Shown in pieces: positions 34,041 through 47,349 of a stretch of DNA of 48,780 nucleotides. Made by a program: the position numbers and the translations under genes. Source of the DNA: Desulfovibrionaceae bacterium. Lineage in GTDB: Bacteria; Desulfobacterota; Desulfovibrionia; Desulfovibrionales; Desulfovibrionaceae. The DNA lies in the NCBI GenBank assembly GCA_031082225.1, contig JAVHLG010000033.1, positions 1 through 48,780 on the forward strand. The letters are read 5' to 3'. Numbering within the stretch: the first letter of the stretch is position 1; the number at the start of each line of letters is the position of its first letter. The notes under the pieces were generated by a model, which worked only from the letters and a program-made list of their open reading frames with translations, made no database searches and was not told the DNA's origin.

Positions 34041-34054
34041 GCCGCCCTCCTCTA

Positions 34055-34268
34055 GCCTGTCCGCCAGGCCGCGCCGCGACCTGAGAAAAATACGGCAGTA
34101 TTTTTTAATGAAGAACTATTCAAGTACGTTGCCATGGAAAAGAGAACCTTTACGGCCTGTCCGCCAGGCCGCGCCGCGACCCATGAAAAATACGGCAGTA
34201 TTTTTTTCATATATAAGTATTCAAGCATGTTGCCATACAAAAGAGAACCTTTACGGCCTGTCCGCCAG
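34055..34268 (-). repeat. Tandem copies of the mnhF 3' end plus AT stem-loop
   Basis: Two complete units of 100 and 101 bases (34055-34154, 34155-34255) plus the original gene end (34256-34268). Each unit has, in minus-strand order, the coding end of mnhF and its stop (GCGGACAGGCCGTAA), a moderately conserved spacer, and a stem-loop AAAAATAC-TGCC-GTATTTTT (plus strand 34186-34205 and 34086-34105). The hairpins look like terminators or attenuators inside an operon. Confidence 0.8.
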
Positions 34269-34526
34269 ACCACGTTTAAGGACATACCGCGAGGCAGCCA
34301 GGACGGAGATGAAGTTGAGCATGGCGTAGGCCAGGGCGATGTCCACGAACATCTCCAGACGGCCGAAGGCCGTGCCCAGAAAGAGGATGAGCACCGTGGT
34401 CTTGGTGCCCATGGCGTTGGCCCCCATGAGCCGGTCCAGGGTGGTTGGCCCGGCCGCCGTGCGGTACAGGGAGACCAGCATGAGCAGGGAGATGAACACG
34501 GCGCTGTATAAAAAGACGTGATCCAT
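34251..34526 (-). CDS. mnhF: Na+/H+ antiporter subunit MnhF/MrpF
   Basis: 91 residues, three membrane segments, with GPTTLDRLMGANAMGTKTTVLILF and a C-terminal LAYAMLNFISVLAASRYVLKR core of the MrpF family. Its last codons (LADRP, stop) are repeated downstream. Starts 3 bases after the mnhE stop. Confidence 0.92.
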   Translation of the reverse strand: MDHVFLYSAVFISLLMLVSLYRTAAGPTTLDRLMGANAMGTKTTVLILFLGTAFGRLEMFVDIALAYAMLNFISVLAASRYVLKRGLADRP

Positions 34527-36798: not shown

Positions 36799-36825
36799 CC
36801 CGGGCGGGTCGTGAAACGCCGGATC

Positions 36826-36869
36826 GCCGGGAACGGACGCCGCAGGCCGTCCGTTCCCGGCAGTTTTTT
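36826..36869 (+). terminator. Rho-independent terminator after the PQQ-propeller gene
   Basis: A perfect 14-bp stem (GCCGGGAACGGACG / CGTCCGTTCCCGGC) with an 8-base loop is followed by AG and six T. Confidence 0.93.
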
Positions 36870-36937
36870 GGCGTGGCGCATTGTCTGGCTGGGGCGGTTC
36901 CCGGTACGGTTCTTGACAAAACACCATTTTCTGAACG

Positions 36938-36945
36938 AGGTACCT
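36938..36945. promoter_or_regulatory. AGGTACCT palindrome at the mqsA ribosome binding site
   Basis: A perfect 8-base palindrome overlaps the GAGG of the Shine-Dalgarno sequence, just before the ATG at 36949. MqsA-type antitoxins repress their own promoters by binding AGGT/ACCT palindromes (AACCT-N-AGGTT in E. coli), so this is a candidate operator. A TTGACA at 36913-36918 lies upstream but has no good -10. Confidence 0.35.
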
Positions 36946-36948
36946 TTT

Positions 36949-37387
36949 ATGAATGCACAAAGAGTGAATTGCCCACATGATGGTTGCCTCATGGAACACG
37001 ATGTCCGGAATGTGACCATTACGTATAAAGGATTGTCGAAGTCCGTTGATGTTCCAGGATGGTATTGTCGTGAATGTGGCGAGGGTATTCATAGCGGAAA
37101 AGATCTGAAGATCACAGACAAGGCCTTGAATGAATTGAAAATGCAAAGCGACGGACTTTTGAGCCCGCAGGAATACGAAGAACAAAAAAAAATTGCGTCT
37201 CACGCAAAAAGAGGCCGGAACGATCATTGGTGGAGGACCGCGCGCCTTTCAAAAGTATGAAAGCGGCGAGTTGCTCCCCAGCCGGGCTATTGTGAGCGCG
37301 CTGAAATTGCTTGATTCAAATCCGAAGGGTCTCGAGGTTCTTCGCAATCCACAGGAGGCATCCCACACGTCGCCTGTGTTTGCGTAG
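36949..37387 (+). pseudogene. mqsA: Orphan MqsA-family antitoxin, frameshifted at A9
   Basis: The first frame (36949-37260) encodes an N-terminal zinc ribbon (CPHDGC and CREC) and a linker up to LLSPQEYEEQKK. The C-terminal Xre-like helix-turn-helix (LTQKEAGTIIGGGPRAFQKYE...LLDSNPKGLEVLRN) is in the +1 frame (37193-37387). The break is at nine A (37184-37192); with eight, one continuous protein of about 145 residues results. Either this is a pseudogene, a base-call error, or slippage on A9 makes the full protein. The MqsR toxin is not present nearby. The gene is AT-richer than its surroundings, which points to transfer. Confidence 0.75.
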
Positions 37388-37597
37388 TTCTATGCGTTGT
37401 AGGAAGATTCCATGCTGGCGTGAAAAAGGGGCGCCCCTGAATCCCGGCCATACCGGCGACGGCCGTGCACCCAAAGACGCCGCGGGCGTTGCCGCCCTGT
37501 CCCTGCCGCGTCCTCCCGGCCAAGAGCGTCCCAGAAGACGCCGTTTCGCCGTTTGATATCCTTTCCGCACGTCGCAGCAACCCGTCCAACGCTGCTC
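37388..37597. other. Intergenic, no supported gene
   Basis: 210 bases between mqsA and the tandem repeats. It has GC-rich frames on both strands, none with a credible start or composition. No structure noted. Confidence 0.3.
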
Positions 37598-37790
37598 CCA
37601 TGAAAAGACGTGTCGTCTTTTTTTATCCTCCCCAGAAGCCGCAACATTCCGTCCAGAACTCCCAGAAAAAGACGATCAGTCTTATTCTATCCTCACCTAA
37701 AAGGCAGGGCATCCCGTCCAGAACCCCCAGGAAAAGACGATCAGTCTTTTTTTATCCTTCCCAGAAGCCGCAACATTCCATCCAAAGCCG
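37598..37790 (-). repeat. Three tandem copies of the Hyf small-subunit gene end plus stem-loop
   Basis: Units of about 64-65 bases: 37727-37790 (including the real gene end), 37662-37726 (more diverged) and 37598-37661. On the minus strand each carries ATGTTGCGGCTTCTGGG-like gene sequence, a GGATAAAAAAAGAC segment and a stem-loop AAAAGAC-loop-GTCTTTT (37732-37750 in the original). The stop codon of the gene lies in the hairpin loop. Copies I and III match better than copy II. The same architecture occurs behind mnhF. Confidence 0.8.
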
Positions 37791-38523
37791 TTATCGGATG
37801 CGGCGGACATCCCGGGATGTACAGATCGACCGGCACGACGGCGTCGGCCCCGTCATGGGATTCGGGCAGTCCGGCGAACGGCCCCCCGGAGATGGCGCAG
37901 GCCCCGGAGGCGATGACGATTTTGGGGTCGGGCGTGGCCTCGTAGCACTTGATAAGCGCCTCGCGCATGTTCTCGGGCACCGGCCCGGTGATCATCAACC
38001 CGTCGGCGTGGCGCGGCGAGGCCACGAAATCGATGCCGAAGCGCCCCAGGTCGAAGACGATGGTGGTCAGCACGTTCAAATCCGCCTCGCAGGCGTTGCA
38101 GCCCCCGGCGCTGACCTGCCGCAGCTTCAGCGACCGGCCGAAGAGCTTCCGGGTCCGCTTCTCCAGGGCCTCGGCCAGGCGCAGGGCCTCGCCCCGAAAA
38201 TGCAGATGCTCCCGTTTCCTCACGGCCAGCCGGTAGTCGCGGCCGAAGGTGATGGCCCCTGCGGGGCAGGCGGCCATGCAGTCCGTGCAAAACAGGCACT
38301 TGCCCAGGTCGACAAGCGGCGTGCCGCCCAGGCCCAGGCCCGGGCGCATGGCCCCCACGGGACAGGCGGCGGCGCAGGCCGGGGCGGCCAGACAGTCGGG
38401 AGGGCATTTCCCGGCGTCGATGACCGGCAGGCCGCGCAGGCGGTCGGGCAGGTTCGGGGCGCCGTCCGGAAAGGCCACGGTGCGGCGTTTTTGTCTCAGG
38501 CGTTCCAGGGCGGCGCGAAGCAC
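37741..38523 (-). CDS. Hyf/Ehr complex small subunit: ferredoxin domain + NuoB-like domain
   Basis: 260 residues from a GTG at 38523. The N-terminal part has two [4Fe-4S] sites: one canonical (CLFCTDCMAACP) and one unusual (CPPDCLAAPACAAACP, Cx3Cx5Cx3C). The C-terminal part is the NuoB/HycG-like small subunit with all four cysteines of the proximal cluster (GGCNACE, SGACAISGG, PGCPPHP). It fuses the roles of HyfH-type ferredoxin and HyfI. It passes electrons towards the large subunit and lies in the peripheral arm on the cytoplasmic side. Confidence 0.88.
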   Translation of the reverse strand: MLRAALERLRQKRRTVAFPDGAPNLPDRLRGLPVIDAGKCPPDCLAAPACAAACPVGAMRPGLGLGGTPLVDLGKCLFCTDCMAACPAGAITFGRDYRLAVRKREHLHFRGEALRLAEALEKRTRKLFGRSLKLRQVSAGGCNACEADLNVLTTIVFDLGRFGIDFVASPRHADGLMITGPVPENMREALIKCYEATPDPKIVIASGACAISGGPFAGLPESHDGADAVVPVDLYIPGCPPHPITALDGMLRLLGRIKKD

Positions 38524-46910: not shown

Positions 46911-47349
46911 AAATATCCTCGCTGATTCCCCGGTTGATTTTCCGGGTCGGCTTCTCGCTCCCAAACACAGGAACGCAGAGGGGTGACGCCGCCCGCCACT
47001 GTCGAATTCCCAAAGAGATGCACGGAAAGCGGCCCAAAGTCCATATCATGGGGCTGGATCGCAAGGATGCGCCGGATGGCGCTGGCCTAGTATCACGTCC
47101 CTTAAAAAATACGATAGTATTTTTTAAGAAAAATAAATAATTTTAGTTTGTTATCTACGGAACGCCATATGCGCTTTTCGTGGACGCGAACTAGCTTGGC
47201 GAGGCCGCCAGGCAGAGAACCGCCCTGGCTGTCCGTGGCCGCATGGATCATTTCTGCCCGGTGAAGCTGGAAGCGGCGGCAGGTGGACGAAGTGACCCCC
47301 ATGAGGAAATCTTCGAGCCGGGTGACTTGGCCTATCTTCTTAAGATAAA
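46911..47349. other. Intergenic with AT stem-loop
   Basis: 439 bases between the methyltransferase and fucosyltransferase genes. A minus-strand frame (47102-47302) ends in KKYYRIF at the stem-loop but has no recognisable family and may be a relic. The part from 47129 to 47155 is AT-rich. Confidence 0.4.
47101..47128. terminator. Perfect 12-bp AT stem-loop
   Basis: CTTAAAAAATAC-GATA-GTATTTTTTAAG is a perfect inverted repeat with tails of A and T, so it could terminate transcription in either direction. The core AAATAC-NNNN-GTATTT is the same as in the mnhF repeats. Confidence 0.6.

Follow-up and report, generated by a model that had tools for sequence, protein, structure and literature searches.

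The DNA considered here, a window of 48,780 nucleotides from a member of the Desulfovibrionaceae (contig JAVHLG010000033.1), harbors tandem units at the end of a gene for a Hyf/NuoB-like small subunit, in which the gene end is repeated together with a hairpin, and a second arrangement of this kind lies at mnhF. Such a layout raises the question whether it is peculiar to these genes or results from a process that recurs elsewhere, and by which steps the end of a gene comes to be copied behind itself.

The hyf array is real: Tandem Repeats Finder reports it at 37595-37784 (period 65, 3.0 copies, 75% matches), and its units can be traced on the minus strand over 37527-37791 (Table 1). An earlier note on this DNA, made from the letters alone, had described three units, which are found with lengths of 64-67 bases, but had missed a decayed fourth (37527-37595) showing 64% identity to units 1-3 and 62-68% to nine other units compared. 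With 64-84% identity among the four units, the array is not recent. The gene end is indeed copied, not as the last 12 or so codons but, in unit 1, as ~16 codons plus the stop codon (37791-37741). The hairpin had been placed after the gene; the stop at 37741 falls within unit 1, the 5' arm consists of the last codons, and the stem spans the stop codon. A hairpin in every unit was likewise claimed, which applies to units 1 and 3, but that of unit 2 is imperfect. A search of the array against its own genome yielded no other good match (next best E 0.16).

Two further genomes of the same genus, G001 and G002, were compared with the genome of the window (G000), and all three species carry the hyf hairpin. 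G001 harbors five units of ~90 bases, three of which were compared and show 87-94% identity to one another. The right breakpoint is constant, ~6 bases past the hairpin in G000, G001 and G002, whereas the left one lies at GGGTGCCCGCC in G001 and near ACGGCTTTGG in G000 and G002; these two differing left breakpoints in two lineages imply that the gene end was duplicated at least twice. If A denotes the copied gene end and B the adjoining sequence with the hairpin, the hyf array reads (A-B)n, with no usable trailing copy. Elsewhere in the window, the ORFs at 36811-37260 and 37193-37387, which differ in frame, seem to form a single gene disrupted at a run of A, probably for an MqsA/YgiT-like antitoxin.

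The array at mnhF, located ~3.5 kb from that at hyf and inside the mnhF-mnhG operon, occupies 34049-34274 and reads A-B-A-B-A. It is likewise real and its sequence is unlike the hyf units, in agreement with the earlier claim that each array arose from its own gene end. An ORF of 77 codons (34052-34285), read in another frame, extends from within mnhF across both units and closes at the distal copy's TAG.

Table 1. Genes, array units and dispersed element of the window.
Feature	Position	Strand	Remarks
mnhF gene	34251..34526	-	91 aa, ends ...RGLADRP (stop); name from the earlier note and by reading
mnhF unit 1	34174..34274	-	gene end (A) + B, hairpin 34186-34207
mnhF unit 2	34074..34173	-	gene-end copy + B, hairpin core 34087-34104
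mnhF distal gene-end copy	34049..34073	-	followed by mnhG start region; continuous with native flank of G001
Hyf/NuoB-like small subunit gene	37741..38523	-	260 aa, ends ...RIKKD (stop); Oxidored_q6 E 5e-27
hyf unit 1	37725..37791	-	coding gene end + hairpin 37732-37751 across stop codon
hyf unit 2	37660..37724	-	non-coding copy, imperfect hairpin 37666-37686
hyf unit 3	37596..37659	-	non-coding copy, hairpin 37603-37622
hyf unit 4	37527..37595	-	decayed gene-end copy + decayed hairpin 37535-37554
Class I element	47088..47194	+	hairpin core 47106-47123, TAG at both ends; end counted by eye

Hairpins of this type were sought with the pattern AAAANACN{3,6}GTNTTTT, the reversed pattern serving as control. 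Matches against control amount to 47 vs 0 in the genome of the window, 31 vs 2 in G002, and 42 vs 10 in G001. Across 59 genomes of the family most counts are near the control, with G005 (56), G027 (52), and G029 (30) standing out. A flanking direct repeat, counted at a score of at least 34 and compared with random positions from the same stretches, accompanies 12 of 39 hairpin loci in G000 (12 of 420 random positions), 10 of 24 in G002 (15 of 288), and 3 of 33 in G001 (6 of 384), where three more sites of one repeated hairpin were left out. No flanking repeat was present at the 18 hairpin sites tested in G005 (of 56) or the 15 tested in G027 (of 52). Most of the sites listed among the 56 matches of G005, which belongs to a different genus, carry the hairpin AAAATACTTCGTATTTT, found there near one end of a transposon-like family with CTAG ends (L236-L255). 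Another 80 relatives, 57-67% identical, are too distant for a comparison of arrays.

Altogether, 14 gene loci in the three genomes show an A/T-rich hairpin (AAAAnAC-loop-GTnTTTT) between directly repeated copies, of a gene's 3' end at 13 loci and of a gene start at one (ydjC). They comprise mnhF, hyf, dapB, a glycosyltransferase (GT4), acrB, znuA, a branched-chain amino-acid ABC ATPase, a protein kinase, DUF6811, flgO, ydjC, a 4Fe-4S protein, and the unnamed genes at L312 and L313, the names being assigned by Pfam except for mnhF, named by reading, and acrB, named by eye. L158 passed the repeat score, yet was not accepted as a case; L166 and L315, though within the ten of G002, are outside the 14 gene loci, as is an intergenic array at G002 1964750. 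L166 (G002:C1:1758276-1758583) consists of three tandem copies of a transposon-like element directly at a TAG stop codon. Since the genes at the 14 loci are unrelated and share no functional theme, the suspected association with energy-converting membrane operons is a coincidence. With many more cases found by the genome scan, the possibility that the two arrays of the window stand by themselves is dismissed.

A test independent of the pattern compared the last 160 bases of each gene, predicted with a home-made gene caller, with the next 260 bases. Stretches of 0.8 Mb each from G002 and G001 and the window were covered, the G001 stretch and the window having been picked for hyf and not at random. 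A gene end is copied downstream in 8 of 1137 genes (3/548 in G002, 3/558 in G001, 2/31 in the window), and in seven of these eight the two copies are separated by an A/T hairpin. In the remaining case (G001 3558028) the stem is of the G/C type, the copy starts ~10 bases after it (by eye), and its folding does not surpass that of shuffles (z -1.3). The 4Fe-4S locus of G001 escaped this test, though inside the sampled stretch, and the mnhF array of G002 was detected from the gene-start side only. Of 233 genes in 0.4 Mb of G027 two passed, with a G/C-rich stem and alignments that stop 116-117 bases before the stop codon. Gene starts copied upstream amount to 2 of 548 in G002, one being the mnhF array seen from the wrong side and the other lacking a real hairpin; none were found in G001, G027 or the window. 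These findings point to a recurrent process of hairpin-linked duplication in the genus that is not peculiar to the hydrogenase gene.

Ten loci, i.e. eight of G000 traced through orthologues as well as mnhF and hyf, were compared across the three species (Table 2). At nine of the ten a sister species has a single gene end and no hairpin, the exception being hyf; G001 is empty in this manner at all nine non-hyf loci, and G002 likewise at znuA, DUF6811, and ydjC. Counting an empty site as 0, hairpin number differs among the three at nine of the ten loci, a variation between species, not strains. A fixed number of units in all relatives, the outcome opposed to gain or loss of units in the earlier note, is therefore not what the comparison yields.

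Table 2. Hairpins per locus in the three species.
Locus	G000	G002	G001
dapB	4	1	0
acrB	1	2	0
kinase	2	1	0
DUF6811	2	0	0
znuA	1	0	0
ydjC	2	0	0
GT4	2	2 (second decayed)	0
mnhF	2	2	0
ABC ATPase	1	1 (second gene-end copy truncated)	0
hyf	4 (one decayed)	3	5

Alignment of occupied and empty alleles makes the duplicated stretch A directly visible at five of nine loci. The overlaps span 17-121 bases: 17-19 at mnhF, 23 at DUF6811, 34 at GT4 (G000 only, with a weak right block), 45-47 at ydjC, and 110-121 at acrB. At the other four loci, namely dapB, znuA, the ABC ATPase, and the kinase, the overlap is negative and the flanks are diverged. At mnhF and DUF6811 it is the distal copy, not B, that is continuous with the native flank; the same continuity at ydjC rests on 10 bases, the contig ending 10 bases past the last copy.

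The ten gene-end loci measured for geometry (15 rows) share the layout gene-A-(B-A)n-flank, with the hairpin carried in B. A is between 14 and 144 bases long, its end falling at -12 to +13 bases relative to the stop. The distance from the hairpin to the distal copy is 0-24 bases (median 8), that from the proximal copy to the hairpin 11-67 bases (median 31). As the downstream gap between genes has a median of ~100 bases, the nearness of the end of A to the stop is unlike random intergenic events. Seven of 22 rows were not counted, namely three of hyf, two of flgO, and one of L312, which provide no usable trailing copy, and that of the 4Fe-4S locus in G001, misplaced (+57) because a second hairpin escaped the pattern; ydjC is outside this set. 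Four of the 15 rows have trailing-copy scores near the background, of which 95% is reached at 29 (GT4 of G002, 19; mnhF, 28 and 30; 4Fe-4S of G002, 28). Avoidance of TGA at the target stops was considered and not retained (p 0.06-0.10).

Two classes of hairpin can be distinguished by eye, those between direct gene-end copies (class II) and those of dispersed elements (class I). Class I elements measure ~105 bases, have inverted-repeat ends with TAG or CTAG beside them, and carry the hairpin just inside one end. Under a strict two-end test, both ends were recognized at 15 of 98 hairpin sites in four genomes; in the window this applies to the hairpin at 47106 only, and not to those of the hyf and mnhF arrays. 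The element around it (Table 1), with inverted-repeat ends and the hairpin AAAATACGATAGTATTTT, has close relatives at C16, C26, and C74 of G000. Of 14 B sequences, four resemble class I outside the hairpin (p < 0.05, uncorrected), namely those of mnhF in G002, GT4, the ABC ATPase, and dapB; that of mnhF in G000 shows no such match. For ydjC and znuA, the three genomes contain no further copy of B, the similarity being confined to the hairpin and the A/T bases next to it. With these results, the idea that B is copied from a single master sequence was abandoned. Apart from these hairpins, a long array in G001 (C1:3393324-3407313) with 61-base periods and the repeat TTCCCCGCGCTCGCGGGGAT is CRISPR-like by look.

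Folding was assessed for RNA and DNA. The five window hairpins reach -4.2 to -8.3 kcal/mol as RNA, in most cases barely exceeding the stability of shuffled sequences (four gave z -0.5 to -2.1). Nine A/T hairpins were folded as DNA, and these are more stable than their shuffles (z -1.9 to -8.1). A stable G/C-rich stem followed by a T run, the hallmark of an intrinsic terminator, is absent from the five window hairpins, which are thus not convincing as terminators. A terminator scan lists none of them, its rule of at least three G-C pairs excluding such stems by design. At the gathering score, Rfam gave no match in the window and the nine loci, which rules out a known RNA family.

The repeated mechanism suggested for the two arrays in the earlier note is supported by the many further loci and the varying unit number; the two mechanisms it offered are borne out only in part. 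Slippage fits the change in unit number at hyf, dapB, acrB, and the kinase locus, as would unequal exchange, though a setting of terminators is not convincing. Of an element inserting at gene ends, the part that stands is that something arrives, as the sister sites are empty at nine of ten loci. The reading preferred here, to which a probability of about one half is given, is that hairpins provoke template switching and derive in part from a dispersed transposon-like element. The hyf array is then a series of direct duplications in which the last ~50 bases of the gene are repeated along with an A/T-rich palindrome. Comparison of the loci other than hyf shows that B with its hairpin comes to lie at a gene end and that the adjoining A is directly duplicated, changing the locus to gene-A-B-A-flank, with gain, loss and decay of units thereafter. 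As to the mechanism, the hairpin would form in newly made DNA, the strand would quit its template a few bases later, and the freed strand would re-prime upstream within the gene, so that the gene end is copied again. A switch triggered in this way would always place the right breakpoint next to the hairpin and leave the left one variable. Once two copies of A exist, slippage or unequal exchange could alter the number of units. The hairpins probably derive in part from the ~105-base class I elements, either through insertion of an element or because the strand switched to one as its template. The gene-proximal copy would stay intact because it is coding, while distal copies decay, and the array would require no cellular function. 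Template switching, which we infer from the breakpoints, would on its own leave unexplained how B reached an empty site in the first place, a step for which another template or an enzyme would be needed. The narrower proposal that a palindrome at the stop codon provokes repeated copying of the last 14-144 bases of a gene is tentative.

Alternatively, an enzyme could insert a short mobile hairpin element near stop codons with long, variable target duplications, slippage then altering the copy number; nicks tens of bases apart on the two strands or an insertion of the reverse-transcription type would be possible routes. The change from gene-A-flank to gene-A-B-A-flank would then be the trace of insertion with target duplication, and the constant hairpin end and variable other end of B, the dispersal of class I elements with the same hairpin in the genus, and the position of the end of A within 13 bases of the stop at all ten loci, despite downstream gaps of ~100 bases (median), would fit as well. 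This explanation is nevertheless rather doubtful, as the duplications range from 14 to 144 bases and hyf requires no insertion. To our knowledge, such a range is unlike that of known transposases. No clear parent insertion sequence came to light either: an end search with TAGTGTCGCGTCC recovered pairs spaced ~105 bases, and inspection by eye revealed no clear pair at 1-2 kb. Reverse transcriptase (PF00078) is absent from G000 and G002, which argues against RNA copies, and hence retro-insertion, as a general route; in G001 three matches, two of them over the cut-off, were obtained.

A plain tandem duplication of a gene end that already possessed its hairpin, with no arriving element and no role of the hairpin, would account for hyf, where all three species have the hairpin, and for flgO and L312, which like hyf are all (A-B)n with no clear trailing copy. 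It is already contradicted at most loci, and improbable in general, by the sister genomes lacking the hairpin at nine of ten loci, by the A/T hairpin in seven of the eight gene-end copies found without the pattern, and by the distal copy adjoining the native flank at mnhF and DUF6811. Even less probable is that selection keeps the arrays behind genes as terminator or mRNA-protecting clusters: the prevalence of 3' ends (13 of 14 gene loci) and the dapB units, whose stems persist while loops change, could be so understood, and in the accessible part of one source hairpin clusters are proposed to terminate transcription (PMC8355165). However, the window hairpins are weak as RNA, distal units decay, one array lies at a gene start (ydjC), and that of mnhF-mnhG sits inside an operon.

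Duplications by template switching or replication slippage are known as short direct duplications with inserted filler at the junction, a description that covers the arrays as well; here, however, one breakpoint lies beside a hairpin and the events recur at stop codons across the genus. Class I elements resemble MITEs in being short, non-coding, and dispersed, with inverted-repeat ends, TAG/CTAG at the ends, and the same hairpin, whereas the gene-end arrays lack inverted-repeat ends and show duplications of 14-144 bases instead of a short fixed one. Regarding the dispersed similar copies typical of MITEs, the arrays have the hairpin in common; the remainder of B resembles class I in 4 of 14 sequences, and no further copies of B exist for ydjC and znuA. 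MIRU loci of Mycobacterium tuberculosis are located at stop codons, and units of different loci share one sequence. Their copy number is variable, according to the part of the source available (PMC3635867), and the present arrays also are tandem units between genes whose number varies between relatives; each, however, is made from its own gene end, with only the hairpin in common. BrickBuilt of Porphyromonas gingivalis, a minisatellite within a MITE with target duplications of differing length (PMC4596501), likewise ties tandem repeats to a MITE-like element, but its repeat, as given in the accessible portion of that paper, is a 23-base unit of the element and not a copied gene end. SPRITE of Streptococcus pneumoniae is a dispersed repeat with a stem-loop resembling rho-independent terminators (PMC10969869), which is the likeness to the hairpins discussed here; the accessible part of its description mentions no duplication of gene ends, and the stems of the present hairpins are weak and rich in A/T. 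Among known systems, MITEs, MIRU loci, BrickBuilt, and SPRITE come closest, and the arrays lack a defining property of MITEs, MIRU loci, and terminators. A description of hairpin-linked duplication of bacterial gene ends was not found in the accessible parts of the open-access literature, most subscription papers being outside it. We know of no earlier description of a hairpin-anchored duplication process of this type.

Hairpin-linked duplication of gene ends is a genuine phenomenon that recurs in three species of a single genus, and the hyf array is one member. If the reading holds, these genomes record many separate short duplications tied to hairpins, with empty sites in sister species, and the old idea that DNA hairpins provoke template switching would become testable in a natural genus. 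A gene would gain a new, slightly different end while its native end is pushed downstream; at znuA the ending now read is ...AMKEAR (stop), and the displaced copy ends ...SMK (stop). The process would then be one route by which the 3' ends of genes get rewritten and variable tandem repeats begin.
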